Shown here piece after piece: positions 185 through 59,503 of a stretch of 64,000 nt of DNA (its first letter is position 1; each line of letters starts with the position of its first letter). This DNA comes from Candidatus Binatia bacterium (GTDB taxonomy: Bacteria; Desulfobacterota; Binatia; HRBIN30; BPIQ01). The position numbers were made by a program, and so were the translations under genes. A model generated the notes under the pieces. That model ran no database searches. It had not been told where the DNA came from and saw nothing but the letters and a program-made list of their open reading frames with translations. The stretch lies in NCBI GenBank assembly GCA_026004195.1, contig BPIQ01000002.1, positions 496,001 to 560,000 of the forward strand. The letters are read 5' to 3'.

Positions 185-467
185 ATGGACAACAGCGAAC
201 CCAAGCGTACCACCATACCGATTCCTTTCGAAGAAGAGTTGCTCGACTCGCTTCGCACGCTCAATCTACCGGTAGAACAGGCCGTGCGCGAGCTGATCGT
301 CCTTGAACTCTACCGACGGGGTGCCGTCTCGAGCGGCAGAGGCGGCCGAACTCTTGGGCATGTCACGCTGGGAGTTCGTCCACCACGCCTCGCACCTCGG
401 GATCCCGTACTTTGCGATGACCCAGGACGAGTGGGAGGCGGAACGGAGTCGAAGCGAAATGCTGTGA
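185..467 (+). pseudogene. UPF0175-family antitoxin, frameshifted
   Basis: This would encode a small UPF0175 antitoxin that pairs with the PIN toxin directly downstream. The first half (from ATG 185) reads as a typical N-terminus ending in LELYRRGAVSSGR. The family's helix-turn-helix half, with AAELLGMSRWEF and ending in RSRSEML, lies in another frame and stops at 465-467. One surplus G near 341 (agaGgcggcc) accounts for the switch. I cannot tell a real mutation from a sequencing indel. The stop codon overlaps the GTG start of the PIN gene, the usual arrangement for a cotranscribed toxin-antitoxin pair. If the frameshift is real, the toxin has no intact partner here. Family recognition is from motif similarity. 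Confidence 0.7.
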
Positions 468-934
468 GCGCCGGGCCGGTTGTGGCCAATTCCAGTCCAC
501 TGATCGCTCTCGAGCGAATCCGTCGCCTCGGGCTCTTGAAAGAACTGTTTACCCGCGTGCTTGTTCCGCCGGCGGTCGTACAGGAAACGTCGCCGCGACT
601 GGCTCTACCGACTTGGGTCACGGAGCGGTCTCTGACACAACCGATCGGTCCGCAGCTTCTGCGGGGATCGTCGGGCCCGGGGGAAAGCGAGGCGATCGCT
701 CTCGCCCTCGAAACGCGTGCTCGCTGGCTCATCATGGATGACCGCCCGGCACGCCGAATCGCAGAAGCGCTCGGGCTTCCGGTCATCGGTACGCTTGGAA
801 TCTCGTTGACTTCCAAGCGCAAGGGGCATTTGCCCTCCGTTCGACCCTGCCTCGAATCGCTGGCCGCCTCTGGATTTCGCATTTCGCAGGAACTGATGGA
901 CCGGATCCTCCTGGACGCCGGCGAGAGCGCTTGA
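464..934 (+). CDS. PIN-domain toxin (DUF3368-like)
   Basis: A 156-residue protein of the PIN-like DUF3368 group, predicted to be a toxin with ribonuclease activity controlled by the UPF0175 antitoxin upstream. The N-terminus VANSSPLIAL matches the family start, with Ser in the position of the usual first acidic residue. GPGESEAIALA carries a conserved Glu, and LIMDDRPAR carries the acidic pair of a PIN active site. The GTG start at 464 overlaps the TGA of the antitoxin frame, so translation is probably coupled. An uninterrupted upstream reading frame exists from 170, but only because the antitoxin is frameshifted into the toxin frame. The 179 bases from 935 to 1113 hold nothing recognisable. 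Confidence 0.75.
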   Translation: MSAGPVVANSSPLIALERIRRLGLLKELFTRVLVPPAVVQETSPRLALPTWVTERSLTQPIGPQLLRGSSGPGESEAIALALETRARWLIMDDRPARRIAEALGLPVIGTLGISLTSKRKGHLPSVRPCLESLAASGFRISQELMDRILLDAGESA

Positions 935-6480: not shown

Positions 6481-7271
6481 ATAGCTACCTGACGCAAGCT
6501 GCCCACGTCTGCGCGTCGGACTCGGCCTTCATCGAGGTCGACTTTCGAGCCAACCCTCTCGCGAATTTCGAAGAAAGTGCGACGCAACAAGCCAGCCTCC
6601 ATGGACGCAATTCCGCTCGGTTGCCCCGAAGGAACAGGCCTTGCCGCGGCGGGTCCATCGGGCTGTGGAAGCGATTGCAACTCTCCAAGGTCGACGCACG
6701 ACGGTCTGTGCGTAAACACGAGACGGCACGAGCGACAAAACGGCGGAGAGCCCGGACACGAACACAGCCCAGACGACCAACCACCCAGGTTGCTTCCGGA
6801 GGAGCCGGAGCACGAAGACGACCCGGCAGGGGCTCGGCGCCGTGACCGACACTCGCCTGTCGCGTTCGGCCTCCTTGCCGTCGTGCTCCCCCTGACGTGC
6901 CATCCTCGCGCTCGACGATGTTGCTCCTTTACCCCCCCCCCGGGAGCTGCTTGTCAAGAGGCGCCCCTTCACACCCACTTGCAGACCCGGCCGCCGTGCG
7001 CTGCCTTTCCCATTGACGCAAGACAAGGGCGGACGATCCGCTTCGCGAACGAACAGGCATTTTCGCGTCTGCACGACACGGGGGCCCCGAGAGCGCCTCC
7101 CCGAGCACCCCCGAAACCGAGGCCGAAGTCCTCCAACGGCGCAAAGGCACGGTCGACGCATGCGGCTGGGTTATTGGGGCTCGTACACCTCGGCCAGCTA
7201 TCGCCCCCCGAACCGATCGCCAGGGCGCGAAAGCGCGAGTTCTCGGATGGCTCATGGTCCTCCGAACGTGG
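6481..7271. other. Intergenic region with degenerate exported-protein remnant
   Basis: No intact gene is supportable here. On the minus strand, inside the 350-bp repeat, a frame encodes LRLLRKQPGWLVVWAVF followed by a signal-peptide-like stretch ending SRVYAQ, then nonsense. This looks like the leftover start of an exported-protein gene related to the neighbours. The rest (7101-7271) shows no motif. Confidence 0.5.
6752..7100 (-). repeat. 350-bp direct repeat, copy A1
   Basis: A near-identical copy lies at about 10349-10696 in the same orientation. Both copies contain the same minus-strand TTGACA box, a long G tract and the LRLLRKQP coding remnant. The G tract has 10 G in this copy and 9 in the other. 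The block probably spread together with upstream and N-terminal sequence of a propeller-gene family. Confidence 0.8.
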
Positions 7272-10210: not shown

Positions 10211-11394
10211 CAGAGGAACCCAGCGCGTGTGCCGACGAGGTCGATGTCGGGCACAAGCCCGCCCCTGGCTCTTGGGTGAGTTCACGCCGGATGCGTCGTG
10301 GACCTCCTGCCGCCACCGCGACGGCGCGTCTCCTCGATCACGCGCACCGGACACGAACACAGCCCGGACGACCAACCACCGAGGTTGCTTCCGGAGGAGG
10401 CGGAGCACGAAAACGACCCCCCACGGGCTCGGCGCTGTGACCGACACTCGCCCGTCTCGTTCGGTCTCCTTGCCGTCGTGTTCCCCCCGACGTGCCATCC
10501 TCGTGCTCGACGATGTTGCTCCTTTACCCCCCCCCGGGAGCTGCTTGTCAAGAGGCGCCCCTTCGCACCCACTTGCGGACCTGGCCGCTGTGCGCTGCCT
10601 TTCCCGTTGACGCAAGGCAAGAGCCGAACGATCCACTTGGCGAAGGAACAGGCATTTTCGCCTCTGCACGACACGGGGGCCCCGAGAGCGCCTTTCTGGG
10701 GCACCCACGGGGTCGATCGCGAGCAGATCCTCTGCAAGCAGGAGGAGTGAGTCGTAGCGCCCGACAATACGGTGAGCTCCGAGGGCGTTCGGCCGTACAT
10801 CGAAAAGCAGCCCGGGCGGCGGACCTCCGCCCGCGCGGGTCGTGGTGCGCGGGCACCTTGACGGTACCTACTCGATCGGGAAGAGACGAACGGACCGCAA
10901 GTCGGGCGTACCGTGCAAACCAGGACCGGACATTTCATTCGTCGAAGTGAGCGGTCATGATTCATGTGGCAGCAGACAGCCTTGGGCCTTCGCGTCTCAC
11001 GGGTACGCCGAACGCGCATGCCCCCGGGCCGGCCGGGAGCGGCTCCGCGGCACGGGCCACCCAACGAGGCTTCCTAGGAGGTATTGGTTACTCGTGGGCG
11101 TTGGGGTGCGCCTTCGGGTGGCCGTCGCTGTTCCAGTTGGAGTCAAGGTCGCCAGCGGAACAACTGCGTGGACCTCGCTCTGGGGAATTCACGGAGTCGA
11201 ACCTCACGGTGCCAGGCGAAGGAAACGCTGCTCGGGAAGCACCGGAGACGGCCCCGCGGAGCCCGTCGAGAGCTCCTAACGAGCGCCGGACGTACCCCTC
11301 GACGGCCTGGCAACGGAACGTTACGGCGTCGGGCGGCCCCTGCACGACGCATTTTCTGCGTTGACTCCGCCCACTTCCGGTCTAAGCTCGGCGC
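10211..11394. other. Long intergenic region containing repeat copy A2
   Basis: Nearly 1.2 kb without a supportable gene. The first half holds copy A2 of the 350-bp repeat. The rest (about 10700-11394) shows no coding signal with recognisable protein character on either strand and no hairpin of the GGAGG family. The start region of the PQQ-type dehydrogenase lies at its right end. Confidence 0.5.
10349..10696 (-). repeat. 350-bp direct repeat, copy A2
   Basis: This is the partner of 6752-7100, about 3.6 kb away. Similarity begins around gacacgaacacagccc and extends past the G tract and the gcatttt/ggggccccgagagcgcc segment. It differs from A1 by scattered substitutions and by 9 rather than 10 G in the tract between TTGACA and TAAAGG on the minus strand. 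The pair could recombine and delete the intervening lipoprotein genes. Confidence 0.8.
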
Positions 11395-14385: not shown

Positions 14386-14700
14386 CCCCCGGACGCGACG
14401 GAGCGCGTCCCTCCGGATGGCGGCCGCGGTCGGCGCGGCGTTTCGAATATGCGATCGGAGGGCCACGCTCTGTCGTGGCCGTGTCCGCGAACGGGGCTGG
14501 CGATCATGAGGCGACGTCCAACGCCCCCTACGCTTGCAGGGCCACGTTGTTGTCCCGCGTCGGGCCACCGCCCCGGACGCGACGGAGCGCGGAGCGTGTA
14601 AAAAAATTCGCCGCACGCGTTTCGCCCCCCTGATTTCGTTGGGTTTTTTCGTGCGGAATTCGGCCGACGGGGAATTTCTTCACGAACCCGTGTCCCTCCG
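14386..14700. repeat. GGAGG-hairpin cluster with a long-form copy
   Basis: Three hairpins of the window-wide family: type 1 reversed at 14391-14410 (stem GGACGCG/CGCGTCC), type 2 forward at 14461-14480 (stem GGCCACG/CGTGGCC), and a type 1 reversed copy starting at 14575. The last copy is interrupted at 14591-14691 by the 100-bp internal element and resumes with GTCCCTCCG. The remainder of 14139-14721 shows no gene. The segment 14215-14350 looks like further decayed repeat sequence. Confidence 0.8.
14591..14691. repeat. 100-bp element nested in a hairpin, copy 1
   Basis: AT-richer than its surroundings, with inverted ends GTGTAAAAAAATTC and GAATTTCTTCAC. Related copies lie at 27098-27199 and 27337-27437. 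It sits exactly where the right arm of a type 1 hairpin should begin, so the hairpin halves flank it. Confidence 0.6.
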
Positions 14701-22736: not shown

Positions 22737-22812
22737 CGGAGGGGCAGGCTCTGTCGTGGCCGTGTGCGTGCATACCTCCACCCCCCGGACGCGACGGAGC
22801 GCGTCCCTCCGG
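22737..22812. repeat. Facing pair of GGAGG hairpins
   Basis: A degenerate type 2 hairpin (about 22741-22761) faces a type 1 hairpin (22787-22806, perfect 7-bp stem GGACGCG/CGCGTCC). It lies upstream of the GMC operon and downstream of the propeller gene region. Confidence 0.75.
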
Positions 22813-26782: not shown

Positions 26783-27097
26783 ACCTTCTTTCGGCGCCTC
26801 GGCCGAGTCCCGTTCGGGCCGGGACCCCGTCCCATCCCGGCGGGAGTTCGCGGCGAAGGCGATCACGGCCGCCGCGGAGGGACGCGCTCCGTCGCGTCCG
26901 GGGGGGCGGACGCGTCAGATAGGAACACGGCCACGACAGAGCGTGGCCCTCCGATGCGTCCGGGGGGCGGGGAACGTGGGCCCCACACCTGCGATGACCG
27001 CTCGTGCCGTTTCCGACCACGGCCACCGCGGAGGGACGCGCTCCGTCGCGTCCGGGGGGGCGGACGCGTCAGATAGGAACACGGCCACGACAGAGCG

Positions 27098-27199
27098 GGG
27101 AGGACGTGAAGAAATTCCGCCCACGCCATCGTGGGCTGGAATTTTGATGGGATTTTCTCGCGCGAAATTCGGATGACCGGGGATTTTTTCACGATCCCG
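27098..27199. repeat. 100-bp element nested in a hairpin, copy 2
   Basis: The ends CGTGAAGAAATTCC and GGGGATTTTTTCACG are imperfect inverted repeats. The two halves of a type 2 hairpin (GGCCACGACAGAGCG and TGGCCCTCCG) flank it directly. It shares its internal GCGAAATTCGG segment with the copy at 27337-27437. Confidence 0.65.
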
Positions 27200-27336
27200 T
27201 GGCCCTCCGATTCGCGGATTCGAAGCCGCCTTGCAGAGGCGCACGCATGACGCACGCACGTGCCGGAGGGACGCGCTCCGTCGCGTCCGAGGGGGGGCGG
27301 ACGCGCGTCAGATAGGAACACGGCCACGACAGAGCG

Positions 27337-27437
27337 GGGAGAACGTGAAAAAATTCCGCCCGTCCCACCGGAGGCTGGAACTTCATGGAATTTTTTCGGG
27401 CGAAATTCGGGCGACCGGGGATGTTTTCACGAACCGG
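27337..27437. repeat. 100-bp element, copy 3
   Basis: Related to copy 2, with ends CGTGAAAAAATTCC and GGGGATGTTTTCACG. The left half of a type 2 hairpin precedes it, but the right half is missing and the sequence runs into unique DNA. Confidence 0.6.
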
Positions 27438-27506
27438 GATCCCGCGATTCCCGGGGGACACGGGCCAACAATTGCCTCCCCGGTGGATCGGTGCGAACCT
27501 CCAATC

Positions 27507-28940
27507 GTGCGAAAGGGCGCACGCACCTGGACACGGGGCACGAGGGTTTCCCTCGTCCCGCCTCTCCTCTTCGCTCTGTCGCTTTTCGCCCTGCCTTTTT
27601 TGCGTTCGGGCTGCCGGAGCCCGACGCCACCGCCGGCGCATCCCGACGTCGTCCTGGTCACGGTCGATACCCTTCGGGCCGACCACGTGGGTCTCTACGG
27701 ATACGAACGACCCACGACACCGGCGGTCGACCGCTGGTTCGGCGGCGGGGCCATCTACGAGCGTGCGTACTCGACGCATGCCGCGACCCCTCAGAGCGTC
27801 GTGAGCATCCTGAGCGGCCTCCTTCCCCAGGAGCACCGCGTGCGTCTTTTCTACCAGCTCGCGCCGCCGGAGCTCAGGCTCCTTCCGGACCTCCTCCGCC
27901 CCCGCTATCGCACAGCCGCTTTCGTCGCCAACATGCTTCTGACCGAGGAGGCGCTCGGGATCGCGGGGCGCTTCGACCACTACGACGACTACGTCGATCA
28001 GCTCCAGCACAACCGCGACATCTACGAGCGGAACGCGGAGCGGACGACCGACGCCGTCCTCCGCTGGCTCGAGCGCGAGAACGACCCCGGACGGCCGCTC
28101 TTCCTCTGGGTCCACTACATGGACCCGCACGGGCCCTACCATCCGCCGGCGGACTGGAAGTTCCGCTTCCGCCACTCCGGGCGGAGGGAAATCGACCCGA
28201 ACCGCGTTTCGGCCTACATGCGCATTCCGGGGGAAACGGATGGCCTCGTGTACGTCGACCGCTACGACGAGGAAATCGCGTACACGGATTTCCACCTGGG
28301 ACGTCTCTTCGAGGGCTACGAGAAGATTCGGCCGGTCGAAAAAAGCCTCTGGATCTTCACGGCGGACCACGGCGAGACGATGATGGAGCACGAGTTCTGG
28401 TTCACGCACGGCTACCACGTCTACGAGCCGATCGTGCGAGTTCCGCTGCTCTTGCGCGGGCCCGGCGTCGTGCCTGGCAGGAAGACCGCGCTCGCTTCCG
28501 GCACCGACATCGCGCCCACGGTGCTGCGGTTTGCCGGCGTGGAGTCTCCGCCCGAGCTTCCGCGCGTCGATTTGAGGACGGGCGAGGGCCTCTCGGCCAA
28601 CCGGGTCGTCTACGCCGAAGCTCGAGGTCTCCTGCAACAACGGGCGGCCGTCGCAGCTCGTCGCAAGTGGGTCGTCTCTCTCGAGCCCGGGACGGGGAAG
28701 ATCGTCTCGAAACGGACCTACGATCTCGAGCACGATCCCGGCGAGTCGGCGCCCGAGCCCTGGCAGGACGGGCCGGCGGGAGAGAGCCTCCTCGAGCTTT
28801 GCCGGAGCGACCCCGACCCGGGCGGTGCCCCGGTGCAAGTGCGAAAAGGGACGAAGCTCACGGCCCCGAAAATCGCCCCGCGAGCGGAAGCAGAGGTGCG
28901 CGAGCGGCTCCGGGCGCTCGGTTACGAGGAGGAGCCGTAG
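27507..28940 (+). CDS. Sulfatase/alkaline-phosphatase-superfamily lipoprotein
   Basis: A 477-residue protein. GTG 27507 gives VRKGARTWTRG, then leader LVPPLLFALSLFALPFLRSGC, possibly a lipobox. The sulfatase fold is clear: VVLVTVDTLRADHVGLYGY (metal-binding Asp), then the nucleophile region THAATPQSVVSILSG, HYMDPHGPY, and FTADHGETMMEHEFWFTHGY (metal-binding Asp-His). The canonical C/S-x-P-x-R that becomes formylglycine is absent; Thr or Ser occupies the site. A phospho- or sulfo-transfer by a Thr nucleophile, as in phosphoethanolamine transferases and LTA synthases, is an alternative to sulfate ester hydrolysis. It is flanked on both sides by hairpin arrays. Confidence 0.78.
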   Translation: MRKGARTWTRGTRVSLVPPLLFALSLFALPFLRSGCRSPTPPPAHPDVVLVTVDTLRADHVGLYGYERPTTPAVDRWFGGGAIYERAYSTHAATPQSVVSILSGLLPQEHRVRLFYQLAPPELRLLPDLLRPRYRTAAFVANMLLTEEALGIAGRFDHYDDYVDQLQHNRDIYERNAERTTDAVLRWLERENDPGRPLFLWVHYMDPHGPYHPPADWKFRFRHSGRREIDPNRVSAYMRIPGETDGLVYVDRYDEEIAYTDFHLGRLFEGYEKIRPVEKSLWIFTADHGETMMEHEFWFTHGYHVYEPIVRVPLLLRGPGVVPGRKTALASGTDIAPTVLRFAGVESPPELPRVDLRTGEGLSANRVVYAEARGLLQQRAAVAARRKWVVSLEPGTGKIVSKRTYDLEHDPGESAPEPWQDGPAGESLLELCRSDPDPGGAPVQVRKGTKLTAPKIAPRAEAEVRERLRALGYEEEP

Positions 28941-28960
28941 GGAAACGTGCCGTTCGCCCC

Positions 28961-29450
28961 GGAGGGACGCGCTCCGTCGCGTCCCGGGGGGCGGACGCGT
29001 CAGATAGGAACACGGCCACGACAGAGCGTGGCCCTCCGATGCGTCCGGGGGGGGCGGGAAACGTGCGCCCCACACCTGCGATGATCGCTCGTGCCGTTTC
29101 CGAACACGGCCACCGCGGAGGGACGCGCTCCGTCGCGTCCCGGGGGGCGGATGCGTCAGATAGGAACACGGCCACGACAGAGCGTGGCCCTCCGATGCGT
29201 CCGGGGGGCGGGGAACGTGGGCCCCACACCTGCGATGATCGCTCGTGCCGTTTCCGAACACGGCCACCGCGGAGGGACGCGCTCCGTCGCGTCCCGGGGG
29301 GCGGACGCGTCAGATAGGAACACGGCCACGACAGAGCGTGGCCCTCCGATGCGTCCGGGGGGGGCGGGAACGTGCGCCCCACACCTGCGATGATCGCTCG
29401 TGCCGTTTCCGAACACGGCCACCGCGGAGGGACGCGCTCCGTCGCGTCCC
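28961..29450. repeat. Tandem array of a 155-bp unit built from two facing hairpins
   Basis: Units start at 28961, 29117, 29271 and 29426 (periods 156, 154, 155; the last is partial). Each full unit has a type 1 forward hairpin, the spacer gcggacgcgtcagatagga, a reversed type 2 hairpin, and a tail with cacacctgcgatgatcgctc. The same unit occurs twice at 26876-27100. Open frames across the array on both strands are artefacts of the repeat. No gene is present in 28941-29716. Confidence 0.9.
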
Positions 29451-29689
29451 GGGGGGACCCCGGGGCGGAATCGCCGTCGTCGTTTCGCGTTCGAGCATGG
29501 ACGTTCGCGGCATCCGCGAACACGGCCATCCGGAGGGACGCGCTCCTGGCCTCCTTTGTCGGAGTTTCCGGCAGCCGGATGCACGGGATCACGGTGGGGA
29601 CAGAGCCCGAACGTCTCTTCGCGTCCTCGGGGCGCATGATCCACCAAACCCGTGGCCCTCCGGCACTGCGGCCGTTGACTTCCCACCGA

Positions 29690-40893: not shown

Positions 40894-41791
40894 GGACGCG
40901 ACGGAGCGCGTCCCCCCGGCGGACAAGTCCAAAACACACCGAACTTCACGCGGCCCTTCGAACGTGCGGTCGGAGGGACCCGCTCTGTCGGGTCCGTGTT
41001 CGTGTGTGGCACCTCCGTCCGCCCCCGCGACGTCGTCGGAGGGCCACGCTCTGTCGTGGCCGTGGTCGGGAACGGAACCGGTGGTCGTTGCCAACGTTCG
41101 ACCGGCACGTGCCCACGCCCCCCCCCGGACGCGACGGAGCGCGTCCCTCCGGGTGGAACGCGTTCGCGCCCTGGCAGGGCCGTTCGTCGCCAACGCGACG
41201 GAAAACGCCCGTACGCGGCCTCCGCTTCGCCGGGGGGAATCGGAGGGCCACGCTCTGTCGTGGCCGTGGTCGGGAACGGAACCGGTGGTCGTTGCCAACG
41301 TTCGACCGGCACGTGCCCACGCCCCCCCCGGACGCGACGGAGCGCGTCCCTCCGGGTGGAACGCGTTCGCGCCCTGGCAGGGCCGTTCGTCGCCAACGCG
41401 ACGGAAAACGCCCGTACGCGGCCTCCGCTTCGCCGGGGGGGAATCGGAGGGCCACGCTCTGTCGTGGCCGTGGTCGGGAACGGAACCGGTGGTCGTTGCC
41501 AACGTTCGACCGGCACGTGCCCACGCCCCCCCCCGTCGCCAACGCGACGGAAAACGCCCGTACGCGGCCTCCGCTTCGCCGGGGGGAATCGGAGGGCCAC
41601 GCTCTGTCGTGGCCGTGTGCGCGAATGGTACCGGCGATCATCCAGGACGGCCGGCCGACCGATCCCCACATCCCCGGACGCGACGGAGCGCGTCCCTCCG
41701 GGTCGTTCGTGTTCGCCCATGCCGCGAACGTCGATCCTCGAACGCAAAACGACTACGTCGATTCCCCCCCCGGACGCGACGGAGCGCGTAC
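40894..41791. repeat. GGAGG-hairpin array with 204-bp tandem units
   Basis: Hairpins in order: type 1 reversed (40894-40913), type 3 forward (40976-40995, stem GGACCCG/CGGGTCC), then type 2 forward copies whose GGAGG starts at 41038, 41242, 41446 and 41591. Type 1 reversed copies lie near 41126, 41330, 41676-41695 and 41772-41791. The first two units are 204 bases each. The third is about 145 bases because the type 1 hairpin and about 45 bases after it are missing. The gene-free interval is 40881-41803. Confidence 0.9.
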
Positions 41792-41803
41792 CTCCGGAAT
41801 CGA

Positions 41804-45309: not shown

Positions 45310-45797
45310 GAGGCGCACCCCATCGCCGTGGAGCTGCGCCCCGTGGCGAAGGATCCGACACGACGCTTCCGTCGCGCCCGGGCCAAAGGAGGGCGTCCCG
45401 CGGCGTCGCACGGAGACGCACCGTCCCCGGATTCGAGGCTGCCGCGGAGCCTGGCTTTTCCAACAGCCCGTGCGAACGGCCACATCAATGGAGCCGTCGC
45501 CCTCCGATGGGCTCGGCACTAGCGGGACGTGGTCTGTCGGCTCCGAGATGGAGGTTGGAACATGTAACCATTGGACCCGACGAAGCCCATCCCCATCCGA
45601 TTCGTCGTACGACACGGGTGATGTGAACGCGCGTTTTCGGGCCGCCGCCGAGACGTACGACGTTTCGAAACGTGAACGCGACTGGCGGGAGGGACGCGCT
45701 CCGTCGCGCCCGCCGGCGGCGGCTAGCCCGACCGACAGCGTTGCATAAGCCGGCCGGCCATGAAAAGAAAAGCCCCCGACACGGAAGGAGATGCCCC
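45310..45797. other. Intergenic region with one imperfect GGAGG hairpin
   Basis: Gene-free except for a single type 1 hairpin at 45692-45711 (stem GGACGCG against CGCGCCC, one mismatch, loop CTCCGT, GGAGG flank at 45688). No other structure is seen. GGAAGGAG just before 45798 is the ribosome binding site of the next gene. Confidence 0.6.
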
Positions 45798-58149: not shown

Positions 58150-59503
58150 CTAGATCTCCGGTGGCGTGACGCCCTCGCACACTTCGATGTCCAGGCGAGC
58201 TGCCGTCTCGCGTGCCCGCGGCTCGACGTACGGGCTGATGATCAGGCGCCGGTCCACCTGCACGCCCGTGACTTCGCGGTAAAGCTCCGCCTTTCGGGCG
58301 AAGCCGACGACGTCGAAAACGGAGACGGCCGACTTGATCTCCACCAGGATGTGCTGCCCGTCCCTGACGAGGACGTCGACTTCCACGTCCGAAGGATAGC
58401 CGAAAAGCTTCCCCGCGGCGTCCCGATGGCGCCACTGCTCCACGTGGACGTTGGGCTGGTCGCCGAAGAGCGAGCGGATGCCAGCCCGGAAAGCTTCCTC
58501 GCTCATGAGGCCCCACCGGGCGCCGAGCCCCATCACCTGGCGCTGCAAGGCACCGATCGCACGCCCCTGCTCTTCGACAGCTCGCGTGAGCCGCTCGATC
58601 GCGGCTCCGTGGGTTTCCACGACCCGCGTGAGCCGTTCGAGCCTTTCGCCGTGCTCCTCCACGACCCGCGTGAGCCGTTCGAGTCGCTCGCCATGCTCGG
58701 CAAGCCTCCGGCCGTGGTCCTCTACGACTTGCGTGAGCCGCTCGAGCCTCTCGCTGTGTTCCTCCACGACCCGGGTGAGCCGCTCGAGCCTTTCGCCATG
58801 CTCGGCAAGCCTCCGGCCCTGCTCCTCTACGACTTGCGTGAGCCGCTCGAGCCTCTCGCTGTGTTCCTCCACGACCCGGGTGAGCCGTTCGAGTCGCTCG
58901 CCGTGCTCGGCAAGCTTCCGGCCATGGTCCTCCACGACTTGCGTGAGGCGCTCGAGCTTCTCGCTGTGCTCGGCCAGACGCCGGCTATGCTCCTCGATTC
59001 GGCGGCCCTGCTCCTCTACGGCTCGCGTGAGTCGTTCGAGTCGTTCGCTGTGTTCGGCGAGCTGGCGTGTGTGCTCCTCGACGGCTTGCGTGAGCCGCTC
59101 GAGTCGTCTCGCTGTGTTCGGCGAGCTGGCGCGTGTGCTCTTCGACGACTTGCGTGAGCCGCTCGAGCCGCTCGCTGTGCTCGGCAAGCGTCCGGCTGTG
59201 CTCCTCTACGACTTGCGTGAGCCGTTCGAGGCGCTCGCTGTGCTCGGCCAGACGCCGGCCGTGTTCTTCCAGACGCCGGTCGATGGCCTCGAAGCGCTCC
59301 GCGAAGTCCTTGCGCAGTTGCCGCAGTTCGGAGAGAAGGGCCGCGGTTTCCTCCCTCGTCGTAAGGGACTCGACCAGCGTGCCGATCAAAAGGGCCCGGA
59401 TCTCCGGGTCCTCTCGCAACAATCGTGGCAAGGCAGTCCGCAGCTGATCGAGAAAAGAAGTCTTTCTGGCACCAGCCATCGAGGCGATTATGAGGTCGGC
59501 CAA
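58150..59503 (-). pseudogene. Long coiled-coil protein with C-terminal PD-(D/E)XK-like nuclease domain, frameshifted
   Basis: From ATG 59503 (or 59479) the product begins with a helical segment (LREDPEIRALLIGTLVESL), then enters a run of near-identical 14/21-residue heptad repeats of the form EHSERLERLTQVVEEHGRRL. After about 130 residues the frame breaks at 59106-59110, where one extra base interrupts the repeat (gagtcgTctcgctg). The other frame carries the remaining repeats to a C-terminal domain with VEVDVLVRDGQHILVEIKSA, a PD-(D/E)XK-type active site, followed by GFARKAELYREVTG. This layout is common among DUF3782-like proteins of unknown function. The repeats could length-vary by slippage. 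The gene is convergent to the defence-like operon, 139 bases away. Confidence 0.75.

Follow-up and report, generated by a model that had tools for sequence, protein, structure and literature searches.

The 64,000-nucleotide stretch of DNA analysed here (the window) carries 26 copies of a 24-nt hairpin unit, and the genome to which it belongs (the host genome) holds about 700. We put at roughly 80% the probability that these hairpins are REP elements arranged in BIME- or REPIN-like composites, which were spread by a cognate RAYT transposase, since lost or left out of the assembly, and later multiplied by tandem amplification. An earlier inspection of the letters (the sequence-only reading) had likened the hairpins to REPINs or BIMEs, and this likeness is borne out by their copy number, intergenic sites, alternating heterodimers with fixed strand polarity, arrays, and the hairpin-flanked RAYT genes of two other genomes.

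Each unit consists of the tag GGAG, a 7-bp stem and the 6-nt loop CTCYGT. At least twenty hairpins with a GGAGG flank, a stem of this length and this loop had been described, with three stem types, and all of these features are recovered. The loop sequence is divided by type: type A (stem GGACGCG/CGCGTCC) has the loop CTCCGT, whereas type B (GGCCACG/CGTGGCC) and type C (GGACCCG/CGGGTCC) have CTCTGT. The ends of the hairpins are GGAGG and GTCC or GGCC. When the unit is folded as DNA, the 7-bp stem and 6-nt loop have a predicted energy of -7 to -8.5 kcal/mol; folding predicts the stem, but not pairing between tag and loop. In every form, the tag GGAG and the loop CTCY match as complements, by Watson-Crick pairs for CTCC and with one G-T wobble for CTCT. 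That this complementarity has a part in recognition is a guess.

The hairpins lie at 14.4, 22.7, 26.9-27.3, 29.0-29.4 and 40.9-41.8 kb, with one lone copy at 45.7 kb, matching the positions first given for them (Table 1). Besides the 26 full copies there are two interrupted type B copies and one half type A copy. A sulfatase gene separates two of the clusters, which are therefore intergenic, and the genes adjoining the window clusters have solid Pfam matches.

Table 1. Hairpin elements of the window and the sulfatase gene between two clusters
Feature	Position	Strand	Remark
REP type A	14391..14414	-	
REP type B	14457..14480	+	GGCCACG stem
REP type B	22738..22761	+	2 mismatches
REP type A	22787..22810	-	
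REP type A	26876..26899	+	
REP type B	26929..26952	-	
REP type A	27030..27053	+	
REP type B, interrupted	27083..27208	-	~102-bp insert (27098-27199, second repeat family)
REP type A	27265..27288	+	
Sulfatase gene	27507..28940	+	PF00884, E 2e-41; between 26.9-27.3 and 29.0-29.4 kb clusters
REP type A	28961..28984	+	first in tandem A/B array of 154-156-bp units
REP type B	29014..29037	-	
REP type A	29117..29140	+	
REP type B	29170..29193	-	
REP type A	29271..29294	+	
REP type B	29324..29347	-	
REP type A	29426..29449	+	
Half REP type A	29532..29546	+	only head, 5' arm, loop start; read from sequence
REP type A	40894..40917	-	1 mismatch
REP type C	40972..40995	+	GGACCCG stem
REP type B	41038..41061	+	
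REP type A	41127..41150	-	
REP type B	41242..41265	+	
REP type A	41330..41353	-	
REP type B	41446..41469	+	
REP type B	41591..41614	+	
REP type A	41676..41699	-	
REP type A	41772..41795	-	1 mismatch
REP type A	45688..45711	+	single copy, 1 mismatch

The sequence-only reading had named confinement of the repeat to the window as an observation that would speak against it, and had proposed a genome-wide count of the stem types. This count extends the repeat far beyond the window. The host assembly (3.63 Mb, 6 contigs, 98.9% complete) yields 474 type A and 204 type B matches when up to 3 mismatches are allowed, and 696 matches to a free-arm pattern when up to 2 are; a reversed control pattern gives none in the whole genome. 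Direct reading of 2.37 Mb (65% of the genome) found 718 elements (429 A, 208 B and 81 C), grouped in 141 separate clusters of 1 to 27 elements. Exact copies account for 516 of these 718 elements, and for 309 of the 429 of type A. On contig C1 the hairpins occur in islands, and the lists of exact matches are empty at about 45-600, 601-931 and 1117-1660 kb.

The elements are almost entirely intergenic, as the sequence-only reading had supposed. Of 477 elements examined for placement, 472 lie outside called genes, though 82% of that sequence is coding. This count rests on a strand-aware gene model that was trained on the host genome and recovers the sulfatase. An earlier figure of 52 hairpins in genes was discarded, since the codon model behind it had no strand control and called the shadow strand; the strand-aware model reduces the number to 5.

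The arrangement of the types follows a strict rule. Within a cluster, type A occupies one strand and types B and C the opposite one, and none of the 577 neighbouring pairs departs from this. As in BIMEs and REPINs, the hairpins thus form inverted pairs in which each class keeps to its own strand. The description of the hairpins as facing pairs with GGAGG outermost fits many pairs but not all, because in the 14.4 kb pair the GGAGG heads point inward. In the arrays both spacings alternate, and the phrase "GGAGG outermost" thus captures just half of the arrangement. The 29.0-29.4 kb array is a tandem repeat with 97% identity between its units. Among 489 spacers, 246 have a partner of at least 85% identity within the same cluster and 190 have one in another cluster. 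In gaps between tandem genes, hairpin polarity agrees with gene direction 26 times and opposes it 26 times, and polarity flips from one cluster to the next. A role as transcription terminators and an explanation by replication strand, the latter judged by eye, were set aside on these grounds.

The joint change of both arms had been taken as covariation, and single-arm changes as frequent as paired ones had been named as evidence to the contrary. Within the host genome, such single-arm changes prevail: departures from the founder stems are one-sided in 153 cases and two-sided with pairing kept in 4. Types A, B and C are three fixed founders there, and later changes are decay after copying, not compensation. 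Because one-sided changes dominate, the within-genome evidence speaks for hairpins copied as a unit and not for continuing compensatory change. Between lineages the covariation is real. A search of viral contigs with a pattern that fixes head and loop but lets both 5-nt arms vary found 136 matches in two groups. Perfect complementarity is seen in 46, compared with 0.13 expected, although many of these come from one viral lineage and so are not all independent. At least 12 different stems are perfectly paired among these matches. An alignment of 22 distinct hairpins gives a covariation score of 0.838 (0.172 when shuffled and at most 0.18 when slid), but its rows were picked as paired hairpins, so that it serves as description and the free-arm count in viral contigs is the real test. 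Since changes within the genome are one-sided, the argument for selection on the pairing comes solely from the cross-lineage comparison.

Among 395 genomes of the same phylum, the host genome alone is rich in hairpin copies; it is the sole representative of its family among the genomes compared, and none of 15 genomes of the same class carries the hairpin. A few copies occur in G182, G385, G331 and G273, each from another family of the phylum, with the same A or B stems, unrelated flanks and much lower G+C. A search of 372 genomes of the phylum of the Planctomycetota MAG BroJett003 gave 91 matches in G714, 38 in G599 (part of them incompletely paired) and 20 in G774. In G714 and G774 the two REP classes likewise lie on opposite strands. 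Identical 24-nt units with unrelated flanks occur in other families and phyla. Named plasmids and phages yielded no full hairpin and gave partial matches at E 0.07 or worse. The tag is GGAG(G) in every lineage found, by search patterns that fix this tag and to which other tags are invisible.

Outside the host genome, the hairpin also occurs in other settings. In one viral lineage (L231, L250, L264 and others), a hairpin with the stem GGACGAC lies in frame at the 3' end of a gene, reading ...RRVGLGGTTSVSSVAS... Viral contigs L183 and L187 carry tandem arrays with a 33- or 63-bp period and the stems GGCAACG and GGATGAC, and these stem types share one strand, unlike the opposite-strand rule of the host genome. 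Positions 1700-1851 of L188, from Planctomycetota BroJett003, hold a short array in which A-type hairpins occur together with others that end in GGGGCC, apparently within an open coding frame (read by eye) that resembles a DNA methyltransferase.

The sequence-only reading had reported no RAYT gene in the window and had proposed a search for a Y1 (RAYT) gene flanked by the hairpin. The absence extends to the whole assembly as far as it can be tested, whereas the search succeeded in two other genomes, G714 and G774, which belong to the phylum of BroJett003. At G714 locus L464, a gene for a 159-aa protein (CDS 305-784, minus strand) lies between hairpins at 276-299 and 807-830, which carry that genome's own stem type. 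At G774 locus L463 (CDS 1423-1896), there is one hairpin at 1345 and three in tandem at 1930, 2005 and 2080. Judged by their sequences, both proteins are RAYTs: they score 96 and 88.3 bits against NF047646 (REP-associated tyrosine transposase; cut-off 80), match E. coli TnpA-REP 4er8, and contain the HUH and Y motifs MPDHIH and YVxxNPVR. They share 54% identity.

In the host genome, no Y1_Tnp match was found in the whole assembly (PF01797, E up to 1), and a cognate RAYT profile and tblastn found nothing in 2.37 of the 3.63 Mb. For about 1.2 Mb of contig C1, the negative result comes from the Pfam search alone. The G714 RAYT scores 20.1 bits in this search, below the Pfam cut-off of 23, and a still more divergent RAYT could therefore hide in C1. 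Contig ends of the host assembly are rich in hairpins. Because the contigs break in hairpin-rich stretches, a small gene could have been left out of the assembly.

About 30 other RAYT loci were examined and are without flanking hairpins of the GGAG-tagged family; these include RAYTs of G182, G385, G331, G273, G399, G506, G599 and G754, that of G387, and further loci of G714 and G774 themselves. A search for RAYTs in viral contigs found nothing. The unflanked loci in G182, G385, G331, G273, G387 and G399 had suggested that the hairpin is unrelated to RAYTs, a view that the G714 and G774 loci overturned.

The model that we favour for these observations treats type A as one REP class and assigns B and C, which lie on the other strand, to its partner class. 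A RAYT of the small subfamily represented in G714 and G774 (a Y1 HUH endonuclease) would recognize the tag and hairpin in single-stranded DNA, cut beside the folded hairpin, and move single or paired units from one intergenic site to another; the arrays would then arise as A/B units are duplicated locally in tandem. This mechanism is drawn from RAYT biology (PMC8266576, PMC3686654, PMC3116915) and hairpin anatomy, from which we infer that such an enzyme recognizes and moves these hairpins. The host genome would once have carried a cognate RAYT, since lost or situated in an assembly gap. Against the model stand the lack of a Y1 or RAYT match in the host genome and the unflanked RAYTs of eight other genomes. 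It is also odd, if the mobilizer was lost long ago, that most copies are still exact.

Those exact copies, in an assembly that is nearly complete and has no Y1_Tnp gene, are also what would be expected if the mover in the host were not a Y1 RAYT but another HUH enzyme or an unknown transposase. The lack of a RAYT would then be normal, as proposed for CGTC-tagged REPs, which have no dedicated transposase (PMC3733652). We consider this unlikely, since the same hairpin flanks RAYT genes in G714 and G774, recent RAYT loss is documented (PMC3686654), and a small gene could be missing where the contigs break. The flanked RAYT genes likewise count against the view that the hairpins act in RNA, as regulatory or terminator-like elements that selection on transcripts maintains and that multiply by duplication alone. 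Such elements would account for the intergenic placement, for the frequent position of the first element near the 3' end of a gene, and for a slight excess of convergent gaps (18 of 84 regions vs 37 of 247 gaps longer than 150 bp). However, the polarity of the hairpins is independent of gene direction, the stem is not followed by a T-run, stems in the host genome change one arm at a time, and copies lie within coding frames in other genomes; an RNA function of this kind is quite improbable.

Purely passive repeats, which would have grown from a few ancestral copies by slippage, recombination and gene conversion without transposition, would explain why one spacer in two has a near-identical partner within its own cluster and why the 29.0-29.4 kb array is a tandem repeat. 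They would hardly produce 141 separate clusters, nor place identical 24-nt units amid unrelated flanks in other families and phyla, and we give this explanation very little weight. The spacer counts fit dispersal together with tandem amplification, as in the favoured model.

The resemblance to E. coli REP/BIME elements (Y, Z1, Z2) and TnpA-REP is extensive. In both systems, intergenic hairpins number in the hundreds, bear a 5' tag of 4 nt, fall into three classes and form arrays, and the strand of one class is opposite to that of its partners (A corresponds to Y, and B and C take the role of Z1 and Z2); in both, too, a RAYT is flanked by the repeat, here in G714 and G774. In contrast to E. coli, the tag is GGAG(G) rather than GTAG, the stem is a perfect 7 bp rather than bulged, the loop is a fixed CTCYGT complementary to the tag, and the host genome is without a RAYT. 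The REPINs of Pseudomonas fluorescens SBW25 (PMC3116915) are similar in that they are extragenic, seem to have the inverted REP doublet as their unit, and form tandem arrays of two REP groups in fixed orientation, but the doublets described here normally join hairpins of unlike stem class (A with either B or C) and are known from sequence alone.

The GTAG and CGTC REP superfamilies (PMC3733652) also consist of short tagged palindromes that form homo- and heterodimers, with PVC bacteria among the hosts, and CGTC REPs have no known transposase. Our hairpins carry neither tag: the CGTC at one end is absent, and a REP-flanked RAYT in the same genome, typical of the GTAG class, is found in G714 and G774 but not in the host. 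Class 3 TnpA-Y1 genes with atypical structures (PMC6006769) offer another parallel in their atypical tag, Planctomycetota and Acidobacteriota hosts, and high-copy structures beside the gene, but their foot is different (CnGA), and the G714 and G774 proteins lie above the NF047646 cut-off. RAYT loss with REPs left behind has already been described (PMC3686654).

The hairpins are short palindromes (about 20-40 nt) of high copy number and extragenic location, as REPs are; the GGAG tag, where published REPs have a 5' GT(A/G)G tetranucleotide, speaks against the assignment. Because most REP/BIME/REPIN features are present but this tetranucleotide and, in the host genome, a linked RAYT are not, we file the family as a GGAG-tagged variant. 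We did not find a GGAG-tagged REP class described in the literature searched, and the term GGAG is absent from the main text of PMC3733652, PMC6006769, PMC3686654, PMC2817692, PMC8266576 and PMC3116915. A tentative proposal, to which we would give slightly less than even odds, is that the family is a third REP superfamily, with members in two or more phyla and in some uncultured viruses, with a GGAG tag and a loop CTCYG complementary to it. A small RAYT clade would read a freely varying but always-paired stem core, and the tag-loop match may act in recognition or in the choice of cleavage site, unlike in GTAG REPs.

These elements extend REP/RAYT biology to a tag unlisted in the literature searched and to poorly known lineages. 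About 20 natural stem variants share a constant tag and loop, which allows a direct test of the recognition rules with the two RAYTs named above. Among REP populations that are large and little decayed but have no visible mobilizer, that of the host genome is one of the clearer cases, and it is relevant to how such populations are maintained.

Other repeats are present in the window. A second family, whose members are about 100 bp long and have inverted ends (CGTGAAxAAATT ... TTTTTTCACG), interrupts type B hairpins; its window copies lie at 27098-27199 and about 27338-27437, and some 20 copies occur in 2.37 Mb of the genome, mostly less than 200 bp from a hairpin. A stretch of about 350 bp is duplicated at 6752-7098 and 10347-10693 (92% identity, 3.6 kb apart). 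Finally, positions 58574-59293 contain a repeat array in multiples of 21 bp within a minus-strand coding frame, which probably encodes a coiled-coil protein.
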